From the NCBI GenBank assembly GCA_026002875.1, contig BPGE01000001.1, forward strand, positions 2,604,001-2,668,000: DNA of 64,000 bases. Direction: 5' to 3'. Below the pieces are notes generated by a model, which did no database searches, had not been told where the DNA came from, and worked only from the letters and a program-made list of their open reading frames with translations. Source of the DNA: Bryobacteraceae bacterium (GTDB lineage: Bacteria > Acidobacteriota > Terriglobia > Bryobacterales > Bryobacteraceae). Shown one piece after another: positions 2,486-7,315 of the stretch. Every line of letters begins with the position of its first letter. The stretch's first letter is position 1. The position numbers and the translations under genes are program-made.

Positions 2486-3670
2486 TCAGACCATCACGCG
2501 GGCGCCCGCCCTCTCCCGAACGATCCTTCCAGCGGTCTCGCGGGACCGCCGGTCGATGTCGAGCAATTGTCCTACGCTTTCCGCCTCGATGCAAGCCACG
2601 CGGGCGAGGGTTTCCTCCACCACTTCAGCGATGGCGGAAAACGGGATTTCGTGACGCAGAAAAGCCTCTACAGCGATCTCATCGGCCGCATTGAGCGTAC
2701 ATCCAGCCGAACCGCCGGTTTTCAGGGCATCATAGGCCATCCGGAGCAGCGGGAAGCGGTCCGTGTCCGGGGGGTGGAAGTCCCAGGTTCGCGCTTCTTT
2801 CCAGTCGAGCCGCGGGACGGGGGCTTCCCAGCGTTCCGGCCAGGTGAGGGCGTACTGGATGGGCATGCGCATGTCGGTGGCGCAGACCTGGGCGATGACG
2901 CTGCCGTCGTTGAATTCGACCATCGCGTGCACGGTCGACTGGGGATGGATGACGACCTCGACCTGTTCCGGGGCCAGCCCGAACAGCCAGCAGGCTTCGA
3001 TGACTTCGAAGCCCTTGTTCATGAGCGTGGCCGAGTCGATGGTGATGCGCGGGCCCATCTTCCAGGTTGGATGATTCAGGGCCTGTTCCGGAGTCACTCG
3101 CGCGAGCGCTTCTTTCGGAGTATTGCGGAAGGGGCCGCCGGAAGCGGTCAGAATCAGCTTGCGGACGTCGCTGCGCTCGCCGGCGCGGAGGCACTGGTGC
3201 GCGCCGTTGTGTTCGCTGTCGATGGGGATCAGCTCCGAGTTGTGGCGGCGGACAGCCTCCATGACGAGCCTGCCGCCGGCGACCAGGGTTTCCTTGTTGG
3301 CCAGACCGACACGCTTGCCGGCGCGGACGGCTTCATAGGTGGCCTCGAGACCCGCGATGCCGACGATGGCCGAGACCACGACATCGGCTTCGGCGGCTGT
3401 CGCCACGCGGACGTAAGCTTCGGGGCCGGCGAGCAGTTCCGTGCGCCGGGCAGCGCGGCCTTCCAGGGCTTTGCGGAGGCGGTCGAGGCCCGCTTCATCG
3501 GCGACGACAGCCACTTCCGGCTCGAACTCGGCGATCTGGGCGGCCAATTCGTCCGTGTTCTGTCCGGCAACGAGGGCAAATACGCGGAAATGTCCGTCAT
3601 TGCGCCGGATGACGTCGAGGGTGCTCCGCCCGATGCTGCCGGTCGAACCAAGGAGAGTCACTCGCTGCAT
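2486..3670 (-). CDS. dxr: 1-deoxy-D-xylulose 5-phosphate reductoisomerase
   Basis: 394 aa, normal family length. It catalyses the NADPH-dependent rearrangement and reduction of DXP to 2-C-methyl-D-erythritol 4-phosphate, the committed step of the MEP isoprenoid pathway. Visible signatures are the N-terminal Rossmann loop GSTGSIG (residues 8-14), the NKETLV motif, the metal-binding PIDSEHNGAHQCL region, and the MNKGFEVIEACWLF catalytic-domain motif. It is first gene of the dxr-rseP pair. A TATGAT hexamer at 3686-3691 (minus strand) ends 15 nt before the ATG and is the best -10 candidate. Upstream lies the 63-bp hairpin array. Confidence 0.96.
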   Translation of the reverse strand: MQRVTLLGSTGSIGRSTLDVIRRNDGHFRVFALVAGQNTDELAAQIAEFEPEVAVVADEAGLDRLRKALEGRAARRTELLAGPEAYVRVATAAEADVVVSAIVGIAGLEATYEAVRAGKRVGLANKETLVAGGRLVMEAVRRHNSELIPIDSEHNGAHQCLRAGERSDVRKLILTASGGPFRNTPKEALARVTPEQALNHPTWKMGPRITIDSATLMNKGFEVIEACWLFGLAPEQVEVVIHPQSTVHAMVEFNDGSVIAQVCATDMRMPIQYALTWPERWEAPVPRLDWKEARTWDFHPPDTDRFPLLRMAYDALKTGGSAGCTLNAADEIAVEAFLRHEIPFSAIAEVVEETLARVACIEAESVGQLLDIDRRSRETAGRIVRERAGARVMV

Positions 3671-3791: not shown

Positions 3792-4563
3792 CACGGTTGG
3801 GATGCAGCCCTCGCGCGAGCGCGAGGGGAAACCCGTTGGGGAGGGCGCGAGGAGGACGGTTGGGATGCAGCCCTCGCGCAAGCGCGAGGGGAAGCCCGTT
3901 GGGGAGGGTGCGGGCGGCACGGTTGGGATGCAGCCCTCGCGCAAGCGCGAGGGGAAACCTGCAGGAGAGGGGGCAGGTATCACGGTTGGGATGCAGCCCT
4001 CGGCCAAGGCCGAGGGGAAACCCGTTGGGGAGGGCGCGAGGGGGGACGGTGGGGATGCAGCCCTCGCGCAAGCGCGAGGGGAAACCCGCAGGAGAGGGGG
4101 CAGGTATCACGGTTGGGATGCAGCCCTCGGCCAAGGCCGAGGGGAAACCCGTTGGAGAGGGTGCGGGCGGCACGGTTGGGATGCAGCCCTCGGCCAAGGC
4201 CGAGGGGAAACCCGTTGGGGAGGGCGCGAGGGGGACGGTGGGGATGCAGCCCTCGGCCAAGGCCGAGGGGAAACCCGTTGGGGAGGGCGCGAGGGGGACG
4301 GTGGGGATGCAGCCCTCGCGCAAGCGCGAGGGGAAACCCGTTGGGGAGGGCGCGAGGGGGACGGTGGGGATGCAGCCCTCGCGCAAGCGCGAGGGGAAAC
4401 CCGCAGGAGAGGGGACAGGTATCACGGTTGGGATGCAGCCCTCGGCCAAGGCCGAGGGGAACCCCGTTGGGGAGGGCGCGAGGGGGACGGTTGGGATGCA
4501 GCCCTTGCGCAAGCGCGAGGGGAAGCCCGGGGAAGAGGGCAAGGCGGCACGCTCGGAATGCAG
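3792..4563. repeat. Tandem array of 12 hairpin units, 63-bp period
   Basis: The array fills the divergent gap between dxr (minus) and the S9 peptidase (plus). Hairpin stems begin at 3808, 3871, 3934, 3997, 4061, 4124, 4187, 4250, 4313, 4376, 4439 and 4502; only the fourth unit is 64 bp because of one extra G. Each unit is GGGATGCAG, an 8-bp stem with a CAAG loop, GAAACC, then a ~28-bp G-rich linker. Two stem versions occur: CCCTCGCG/CGCGAGGG and CCCTCGGC/GCCGAGGG. Three linker versions occur: GGCGCGAGGGGGACGG, GGTGCGGGCGGCACGG, and GGGGCAGGTATCACGG. They combine in no fixed order. Unit 1 has a CGAG loop. Unit 12 is degenerate but keeps its stem through a G-T wobble. No family name is recognised. 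Because 63 is a multiple of 3, long spurious reading frames run through it on both strands. Confidence 0.9.
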
Positions 4564-4654: not shown

Positions 4655-7315
4655 ATGCGACATCTGCCCGCATTTCTGCTGCTTCTGGCGCTGCCTGCCG
4701 CACCCGTGTCCGCGCAACTGCCTCCGCTGATCGACCGCGATCTGTTTTTCGGCGAAGTGGAAATCGCCGGTGCGCAGATTTCGCCGGACGGCCGCTATAT
4801 TTCGTTTCTGAAGCCCTATCAGGGGGCGCGAAACATCTGGGTGAAGAAGGCCGAAGAGCCGTTCTCTGCGGCGCGTCCGGTGACGGCGGAGACGAAGCGC
4901 CCCGTGCCGCTGTATTTCTGGTCCCGCGACTCGAAGTTCATCCTCTACGTGAAGGACCAGGACGGCGACGAGAACTTCAACGTGTACGCCGTCAATCCTG
5001 CCGAGGCGGCCGCTGCCGGCGCCGCGGTTCCGCCCTCGCGCAACCTTTCCAACGCCAAAGGTGCGCGCACGATCATTTACGAGGTTCCCAAGGCGGACCC
5101 GGCCCACATTTACATTGGCCTGAACGACCGCGACGCCGCCTGGCACGACCTGTACAAGCTGAACCTTGCGACGGGCGAGAAGACCCTGCTGCGGCGCAAC
5201 ACGGACCGCATCACCGGCTGGGTGTTCGACCACAAGGCGCAGCTGCGGCTGGCGACGCGTTCGGCCGACAACGGCGACACGGAGTTTCTGCGGGTGGACG
5301 AAAAGGGGTTCACGAAGATCTATTCCTGCCCGGTGCTGGAAACCTGCCAGCCGGTGCGGTTCGACGAGACCAATTCGAAGTTCTACTTCATCACCGACGC
5401 CGGTGATCTCGATCTTTCGCAGCTGATGCTGATGGACCCCGCCACGGGACGGGCGACGCTGGTGGAAAAAGACCCGCTGAACAGGGTGGATTTTTCCGGG
5501 GCCATTTTCTCCGAAGTCACCAACCGGCTCGCCGCCACGATTTACGAAGACGAGCGGGAGAGGATCTACTGGAAGGACAAGGCGTTCGAAGCGGACTATC
5601 AGTGGCTGCAGAAACAGCTGCCGGGCTACCGGATCACGTTCGCCTCGCGCACGGCTGACGAATCCCGCTTCATCATCAGCGCCAGCCGCGACACCGATCC
5701 CGGCCAGGCTTTTCTCTTCGACCGCAAGACGAAGCGGCTGGCGCTGCAGTACAGACTGCGCGAAAAACTGCCCCGGGAAGCGCTGGCCGAGATGAAGCCG
5801 ATCCGGTACAAGTCCTCCGACGGTCTGGAAATCCCGGCTTACCTCACGCTGCCGAAGGGCGTGCCGGCGAAGGGGCTGCCGCTGATCGCCGTTCCGCATG
5901 GCGGACCGTGGGCGCGGGACAGCTGGGGCTACAACACGCTGCACCAGTTTCTGGCCAACCGCGGCTATGCCGTTCTGTCGATGAATTTCCGCGGCTCCAC
6001 CGGCTACGGCAAGAGATTTCTGAACGCCGGCAACCGGCAGTGGGGCGAGAAAATGCAGGACGACATCACCTGGGGCGTCAAACACCTCGTGGAAACGGGC
6101 GTCGCCGATCCGAGGAGGGTGGGCATTCTGGGCGCCAGCTATGGCGGCTACGCCACGCTGGCGGGCGTCGCCTTCACGCCGGATCTGTACGCCGCCGGGG
6201 TGGCCATCGTTGCGCCGTCCAATCTGATCACGCTGCTCGATTCGATCCCGCCTTACTGGGAGCCCATCCGGAAGATGTTTTACGAGCGCATGGGCGACCC
6301 CACGAAGCCGGAGGGCAAGGCGCAGCTGGAACGGCAGTCGCCGCTGTTTTCGGCGCAGAAGATCAAGACTCCGCTGATGGTCGTGCAGGGGGCCAATGAT
6401 CCGCGGGTGAAGAAGCGCGAATCCGATCAGATCGTCATTGCGCTGCGCGACCGGAAATTCCCGGTTGAATATCTCGTCGCCGAGGACGAAGGCCACGGCT
6501 TCGCGCGTCCGGTGAACAATCTCGCGATGTTCGCCGCAGTGGAGAAGTTCCTGGCCAGGCATCTGGGCGGCCGGTATCAGGAGTCGATGACGCCGGAGGC
6601 CGAGAAGAGGCTGAAGGAGATCACGGTCGATCCGGCCACGGTGACGCTGCCCTCGATGCCCGCGCCTTCGGCCTCCGTGCCTTCCCTGGCGGTTCCGCCG
6701 TCGAAGCTGCCTCATTCCTTCAGGGCGAAAATCGAGGCCGGCCCGCAGGCGGTGGCGCTCGAGCTGAAATCGGTCATTGAAGAAACGCCTGAAGGCTGGC
6801 GCGCCACGGACACGATGCAGACGCCGATGGGCGAAGTCTCCGATGTCACGCTGCTGGACAGCAGGACGTTCACGGTCCTGCGGCGCAGCATCAAACAGGG
6901 ACCGGTTCAGATCGAGGTGCAGGTCCGGGATGGCAAGGCCACCGGAACGATGCAGATGGGCGCCCAGAGCCGCCCGATCGACGTGACGCTGGACGGTCCG
7001 CTGTTCGCCGACGGCGCCGGATCGGGTCAGGTGCTGGCCGGGCTGCCTCTGGCCGAAGGCTACACGGCTGCGTACCGCACGCTCGATCTGCAGACGCAGA
7101 AGACGGCGCTGTCTGCGCTGAAGGTGACAGGCTCGGAAACCGTCACCGTGCCCGCCGGCACGTTCGAGTGCTGGCGCGTGGAGATCAGTCCCGCCGACGG
7201 TTCGGCAGGCAGACAGACCCTGTTCATTGCGAAAAAGGAGCGGCGCCCGGTCAGGATCGAGGCAGTCCTGCCGCAGATGGGCGGGGCGAAGCTGACGGCA
7301 GAGCTCGAGCCCTGA
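4655..7315 (+). CDS. Secreted S9 family prolyl oligopeptidase-like peptidase with extra C-terminal domain
   Basis: 886 aa with signal peptide ([18 protein letters not shown]). Residues ~40-360 form the beta-propeller seen in S9 enzymes. Residues ~370-640 are the alpha/beta-hydrolase domain with the catalytic triad Ser495 (GASYGGY), Asp582 (GANDPRV) and His614 (EDEGHGF). Beyond residue ~670 there is a ~210-residue extension rich in beta strands, with [14 protein letters not shown] and [10 protein letters not shown] phrases resembling DUF3108-like domains; the usual S9 dipeptidyl/acylaminoacyl peptidase lacks it. The start is supported by GGAAGGAG 13 nt upstream. Predicted role is periplasmic or extracellular peptide degradation. 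The gene sits immediately downstream of the hairpin array. Confidence 0.9.

Follow-up and report, generated by a model that had tools for sequence, protein, structure and literature searches.

The stretch of DNA analysed here (the window) comprises 64,000 nucleotides from the genome of a Bryobacteraceae bacterium, designated G000, and is part of a single contig of 4,863,736 bp. Near its beginning lies an array of short hairpin-bearing units, flanked on the left by a dxr-like open reading frame and on the right by a gene of the S9 prolyl oligopeptidase family (Table 1); since the former is on the minus and the latter on the plus strand, the array is located between divergent genes. An earlier note, made from the sequence alone, had given the same neighbors, and the Pfam match of the S9 gene agrees with it, the name dxr being that of the earlier reading. 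When the N-terminal part of DXR was used as query on five loci, the sole match was the window's own locus, and the empty-site test failed there. The three longest frames upstream of the S9 gene (window:4655) were dissimilar among five genomes of the genus, hinting that this site is often rearranged.

Table 1 Coordinates of the array, its units and its flanks in the window, and of IS1182-type-like ends at other loci
Feature	Position	Strand	Source
Left flank: dxr-like ORF, name from earlier reading	2486..3670	-	ORF list
Array, 12 head-to-tail REP-like units of ~63 bp each	3793..4548	+	sequence read, Tandem Repeats Finder
Starts of units 1-6	3793, 3856, 3919, 3982, 4046, 4109	+
Starts of units 7-12	4172, 4235, 4298, 4361, 4424, 4487	+
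S1C-S2A dimer, units 3-4	3919..4045	+	unit alignment
Further S1C-S2 dimers, units 5-6 and 10-11	4046-4171; 4361-4486	+	unit alignment
Unit 8, conserved core: GATGCAG foot, stem, loop CAAG, GAAA	4243..4273	+
Unit 8 stem, 8 bp, CCCTCGGC/GCCGAGGG	4250-4257, 4262-4269	+	sequence, folding
Unit 9, equal to unit 8 but for four paired stem positions (S2 to S1)	4298..4360	+
Degenerate, cut-off start of a 13th unit (ACGCTCGGAATGCAG); ATGCAG at 4558	4549..4563	+	sequence read
Right flank: S9 prolyl oligopeptidase family gene	4655..7315	+	Pfam PF00326, 8.3e-44
IS1182-type-like ends	L130:1824, ~3546; L055:9088, ~9243; L067:8078
IS1182-type-like ends, continued	L073:11107/11412/11715; L042:4717, ~4872

The earlier note had described twelve units of about 63 bp, composed of two stems (S1, S2) and three linkers (A, B, C), and both the sequence and Tandem Repeats Finder (period 63, 11.7 copies at 3793-4529 of the window) agree with this description, including the order of the unit types, which is S1A, S1B, S1C, S2A, S1C, S2B, S2A, S2A, S1A, S1C, S2A and a degenerate S1. 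Units 4 and 12 depart from the common length, with 64 and 62 bp, respectively. The 8-bp stem capped by CAAG holds in general, the exceptions being unit 1, in which the loop is CGAG, and unit 12, in which the stem has one mismatch (CCCTTGCG). The core of unit 8 was predicted to fold into a hairpin on both strands alike, and the fold energy of a single unit was mildly below that of shuffled sequences (z of -1.1 to -1.8). From the mixed order of stems and linkers, the earlier note had favored recombination of modules over slippage, which is only partly true. Units 8 and 9 are identical at 58 of 62 positions and differ by a swapped stem, and such swapping is not explained by simple slippage; however, the three S1C-S2 dimers (units 3-4, 5-6 and 10-11) are identical at 119-121 of 125 positions, and the unit order is in part ordinary tandem duplication of this dimer.

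A search of the genome and its relatives had been proposed in the same note, with the remark that copies occurring only here would indicate a local minisatellite. Such confinement is contradicted by the genome search: the genome contains 418 exact copies of a core 14-mer and 0 of its reversed version, and the hairpin pattern, in which the variable stem letters were left free, had 536 matches with up to 3 mismatches, its reversed control again having 0. Of 20 evenly spaced stretches (400 kb) taken as a sample, 5 contained matches, 38 in total. Altogether, 1.049 Mb of the genome was read; as these stretches were partly selected for known matches, densities along the genome are biased. With up to 4 mismatches allowed, this part contained 474 elements, grouped into 66 clusters, and 464 of the elements sit in the 56 multi-copy clusters. 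No cluster was of mixed strand, 37 being on the plus and 29 on the minus strand, and the largest array, at 2246359, has 23 units. By a purpose-made gene finder that takes the longest frames, 62 of the 66 clusters lie between predicted genes, compared with a coding share of about 85% in the rest of the sequence; the other 4 touch the ends of longest-frame predictions.

Several other identities were considered and rejected. A polar chromosome motif, reflecting replichore polarity, was dropped because the clusters in the part read are on both strands. A G-quadruplex pattern occurred in 102 of the 474 downstream stretches compared with about 60 in letter shuffles, which is too weak; a plasmid origin had no match in a plasmid collection; and a known RNA family was discarded on the 0 matches in the window to Rfam at gathering thresholds. 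CRISPR arrays consist of regular direct repeats with a hairpin, but here the linkers recur (three in the window array), there are no unique spacers, and dozens of loci are occupied.

The element is about 63 bp long and consists of a conserved foot (GTTGGGATGCAG), the 8-bp stem, a 4-nt loop and then GAAACCCG; its conserved part extends from about CAC-GTTGGGATGCAGCC, via the stem, the CAAG or CGAG loop and the second arm, to GAAA. Next to the stem, the four bases read GCAG in the sense and TTTC in the antisense direction. Four perfect stem types recurred, in 47, 31, 12 and 9 clusters, and 406 of the 474 stems were perfectly paired. Among 126 distinct rows, 93.4% of the stem cells were paired, compared with 80.8% in shuffles, and two-sided changes amounted to 96 cells against 27.8 ± 3.9 in 500 shuffles (highest 40), a count that is inflated by related rows. 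Further pair types were not in excess (13 compared with 11.5 ± 0.9 in shuffles, highest 14). It is to be noted that the collecting pattern prescribes most of the letters in stem pairs 1, 2, 5 and 6 and leaves pairs 3, 4, 7 and 8 free, and that at least 89 of the 96 two-sided changes fall in the free pairs.

Across 257 genomes of the order, the hairpin pattern gave 9 matches in G004, 4 in G003 and 1 in G033, in addition to those of G000; clear copies are held by G004, G033 and perhaps G003, in which not all of the matches were convincing. A match of any kind was found in 15 genomes, 11 of which had a single one with 2-3 mismatches, and the reversed control produced single matches in about as many genomes. 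In a collection of 84,980 species, from which the window's own genome was possibly left out, the exact pattern was found in 3 contigs, belonging to two Bryobacteraceae MAGs, namely G004 and G033. The burst is restricted to a single species, the element being almost missing from its sister species. A solitary element at 3031875 was missing from the matching intergenic place in all four of four sister species, G000 having about 92 bp extra with GAT on both sides; as about 30 bp beside the unit is missing from the empty site, too, the exact ends of the element are not proved by this comparison. The 23-unit array was missing in G001 and G003, its two flanks were far apart in G002, and four units were present in G004, a MAG, in which the unit number may reflect assembly collapse. 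To the left of its array, the G004 tract (L082, G004:C28, ~4334) is about 99% (99.4%) identical to G000; rightwards from the array, the identity is 91.8% over 7.4 kb, including 1.3 kb at 98.6%. It may be a recombination tract or a chimeric MAG contig. Positions of tRNA genes in G000 and G002, considered as synteny anchors, revealed no simple order by eye and were not used. Finally, the IMG/VR contig L191 shares 95.7% identity with the L055 locus along 945 bp and carries two units at this site, the last surely orthologous and the one before probably so, with stems that differ from those of G000 and are again paired; the G000 array is longer. L191 is classed as viral and has host-like DNA with the two array units at one end, such that a prophage may adjoin or lie in the array of a close relative.

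A candidate for the mobilizing enzyme is encoded at 2167718-2168167 by a Y1 (HUH) transposase gene, the product of which has 149 aa. The protein reached Pfam Y1_Tnp (28.1 bits, cut-off 23) and remained below the NCBIfam cut-offs for both IS200 and REP_Tyr_transpos. In an alignment of 25 proteins, to the other 24 of which it is 24-36% identical, Arg66, His69, His71, Lys88, Trp108, Ala126, Tyr129 and Gln134 were invariant, and its catalytic residues are kept, as judged from this alignment. It was modeled by AlphaFold with a pLDDT of 92.3, and in a fold search with this predicted model, ISDra2 and IS200/IS608 TnpA came out best, with E-values of 8e-5 and weaker and a TM of ~0.5, while the REP transposase 4er8 ranked ninth; a PDB sequence search retrieved nothing useful, and no relative turned up when genome contigs were scanned for the transposase. 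Searched with this protein, 29 of 121 genomes had homologues, with three genes in G000 and none in G001-G003; G004 has only a 35% relative, and G033 has none. The PF01797 gene counts were 2 in G000, 0 in G001-G003, 2 in G004 and 1 in G033.

A group of three elements starts 60 bp downstream of this gene, and a double-hairpin version of the element is found on each side, an exact 45-mer of which occurs at these two sides only; two copies with 3 mismatches lie elsewhere, and L202 and L066 contain more diverged ones. The upstream copy is broken by an IS1182-type insertion, and the strict pattern therefore counts the downstream side only. Elements on both sides were found for 1 of 728 predicted genes within 150 bp and for 5 of 728 within 400 bp; thus, the arrangement is rare, not unique. 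Two further class 3-like genes, at 2182253 and 800893, each have their own hairpin family on both sides. At the homologue loci outside G000 and G004, repeated hairpins were found in the available flanks of 0 of 21 (three more loci were left out), and the flanks of the class 3 homologue of G004 have a single repeated hairpin pair. Repeats also follow the G004 class 3 gene in L133 (G004:C69) at ~640-1400, with a recurring AARER.RRDQAVPP in translation.

Solibacter usitatus is of the same order as the window's genome. Class 3 TnpA_Y1 proteins have been described together with high-copy hairpins, which number about 600 in S. usitatus, a genome with three class 3 genes (Quentin et al. 2018, PMC6006769). 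The 2167718 protein resembles this class as a divergent relative. As far as the accessible text of that paper goes, the likenesses are a small protein of the HUH-Y1 kind having the HVH motif and, less clearly, W[TA] and YV..xQ, a gene flanked by several hairpins, high-copy hairpins (here, 536 pattern matches), and three genes in Solibacter compared with three class 3-like genes here. The motifs differ in detail: NHVH is THVH here, with T for N as in several homologues, and W[TA] and YV[VI][AENY]EQ correspond to WA and YVVEKQ, in which Tyr and Gln are kept and K replaces E (PMC6006769). The protein is also devoid of the LHG..GSVD and RHGSTRWLW segments that are common to most of the aligned homologues. 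At the DNA level, the 5' foot is CnGA there and GCAG here, and the elements here are almost all in long direct tandem arrays, which are unmentioned in the available portion of the paper (PMC6006769).

Other known systems share some of these features. In Pseudomonas fluorescens SBW25, three groups of REPINs occur next to three RAYT genes (Bertels and Rainey 2011, PMC3116915), similar to the three hairpin families here with a Y1 gene each, and some ordered tandem clusters are described in the accessible text; however, inverted doublets are the rule there and ordered clusters reach four REPINs at most, whereas all 66 clusters here are same-strand, with up to 23 units, and the inverted doublet was not encountered. 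In Acidobacteria, TIRYT genes and GTAG-tagged REPs are known (PMC3733652), and the likeness extends to small palindromes, clusters reiterated in tandem, and Y1 genes decorated by different repeats; judging from the part consulted, they differ by a GTAG tag abutting the stem, absent here, and by the terminal inverted repeats of the TIRYT genes. Compared with a canonical REP, the elements here are likewise short extragenic palindromes in hundreds of copies, but have GCAG in place of the GTAG or GTGG tag. In the in vitro data available, one REP transposase hardly cleaved a substrate in which GTAG had been replaced by GCAG (PMC8266576). No such family is mentioned in the consulted part of the Solibacter genome paper (PMC3174227), and a literature search, thin on subscription papers, found no paper on such arrays. 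The earlier note had recognized no known repeat family, which stands with regard to Rfam in the window, but REP-like hairpins beside a Y1 transposase are known already. What is new is that the copies read are nearly all in direct tandem arrays, that the burst is limited to one species, and that a second family is nested on the opposite strand.

Considering these results together, our preferred explanation, to which we assign a probability of roughly two-thirds, is a selfish, REP-like, non-autonomous element that was seeded by the 2167718 Y1 transposase and then amplified locally. In this model, the class 3-like TnpA_Y1 would have recognized the folded single-stranded hairpin, cut it and rejoined it, by which single copies would have been seeded at new intergenic sites; each copy would then have multiplied at its site, through slippage and through unequal recombination at microhomologies within the unit, and the resulting arrays hold as many as 23 units and have unit lengths private to the locus. 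Mobilization by the transposase is inferred. Against the model are the GCAG foot, being neither CnGA nor GTAG, together with the divergent protein; the lack of repeated hairpins at the 21 homologue loci; and the presence of elements in G004 and G033 without a close protein. The last point is what one would expect if the element were mobilized by another Y1 protein (2182253, 800893 or the larger 3427295) or by an enzyme now lost, as G004 and G033 do carry Y1 genes along with their elements. We nonetheless regard this alternative as fairly unlikely, since different hairpin families flank 2182253 and 800893, the 3427295 gene has no hairpin element within 1.5 kb, and 2167718 alone among the four Y1 genes of G000 has this family on both sides.

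The local amplification can be followed in the unit spacings. Within clusters (n=408), 291 spacings were 60-68 bp, 16 were 39-40 bp and 13 were 85-88 bp, and individual arrays have private unit lengths, for example 61, 63, 64, 101, 102-103 and 147 bp. Inspection of the junctions by eye indicated that in the 39-40 bp spacings about 24 bp was lost between two GTTGGG-like copies, and that in the 85-88 bp spacings a GAGGGGAAA-type tail was duplicated; most length variants thus look like products of microhomology events, and the junctions suggest local amplification by slippage plus recombination. These microhomology-like variants, the private lengths and the three copies of one dimer in the window array would also suit a plain minisatellite, generated by slippage alone and spread by chance recombination with no enzyme. 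We consider it quite improbable, since slippage is unable to account for one hairpin in 66 separate clusters, for stems that are kept paired across types, or for a solitary unit at a site that is empty in four relatives. The stem swap between units 8 and 9, along with the paired stem change in the array of the close relative, supports exchange of hairpin modules. Conceivably, the Y1 enzyme also works on the arrays themselves, cutting and rejoining at the hairpin feet, swapping stem-loops and adding units, which would make them enzyme-built cassettes with exchangeable stems. Such an enzyme predicts whole-stem swaps, as seen in units 8/9 and in the orthologous last unit of the close relative; however, short-tract ordinary gene conversion would look the same, and we hold this extension of the transposase model to be improbable.

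It is also doubtful that the element is a functional one of the host, such as a structured RNA, a terminator, or a nucleoid or gyrase site, kept between genes by selection. Its intergenic placement and paired stem changes accord with such a role, as do the 21 clusters between convergent genes compared with 7 between divergent ones (p 0.013 against even odds), but this excess was weak against the local gene-pair background (p 0.057). Tandem-flanked clusters had no clear strand preference, with 22 antisense and 15 sense over all 66 clusters (p 0.32), and the antisense excess in an early subset (17 of 23) was not significant once all clusters were included. The distribution over both strands and the absence of an Rfam match in the window also argue against a host role, and the near absence from sister species means that it is not an essential part. 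The transposase-seeded model needs no host function, and effects of the arrays on neighboring expression are possible. A protein with 21-residue repeats is extremely improbable: the 63-bp period is divisible by 3, and frames as long as 1144 aa enter or cross the window array, but they are open on both strands, and 139 of the 292 spacings of 59-68 bp are of 59, 61, 62, 64, 65 or 68 bp, such that the frame is not kept. An assembly artefact, to which tandem arrays are prone, can hardly be credited either, as the units of the window array differ in order and the element recurs in two IMG/VR contigs (L190, L191) and the two Bryobacteraceae MAGs.

The second hairpin family was collected by a pattern of the GCAGCCC-GAA-GGGCTGC and GCGGTCC-GAA-GGACCGC types, which had 67 matches in the genome and 1 in the reversed control; at least 3 of them were of the GCGGTCC-GAA-GGACCGC type, beside the gene at 800893. 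In the part read, with 1 mismatch allowed, 67 such hairpins were found, 54 of them within 350 bp of an element of the main family and 13 elsewhere, and all 54 were on the strand opposite to the element. They are located inside clusters with periods of about 180-310 bp, which suggests that they make up part of these long units. A different association was noticed for the IS1182-type-like ends of Table 1 (GGTCTGTGAARAAATC, up to 1 mismatch), as all 10 of the 10 distinct ends lie in main-family hairpins at the loci examined. The transposase fragment adjoining the 2167718 gene matches IS1182 in NCBIfam at 1.4e-71, below the family cut-off. IS1272 is a member of the IS1182 family. Inverted repeats are reported as the target of IS1272 in the part of the literature consulted (PMC5678879).

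The paper that defined class 3, in its accessible text, calls for experiments on the origin and behavior of these Y1 proteins (PMC6006769). With three class 3-like genes and a separate hairpin family for each, this genome offers a natural test case for such little-studied enzymes, and one family has very many matches, in a burst missing from sister species; the three enzyme-hairpin pairs make the recognition rules and dissemination directly testable. In addition, the arrays point to a way in which minisatellites can arise from a REP-like repeat. Apart from this family, two CRISPR-like repeat arrays were encountered, in L067 at ~2269 and in L075 at ~6560, with the repeats CCCCACGCGCGTGGGGATG and GTTCAAAAGGGGATTGAGAC.
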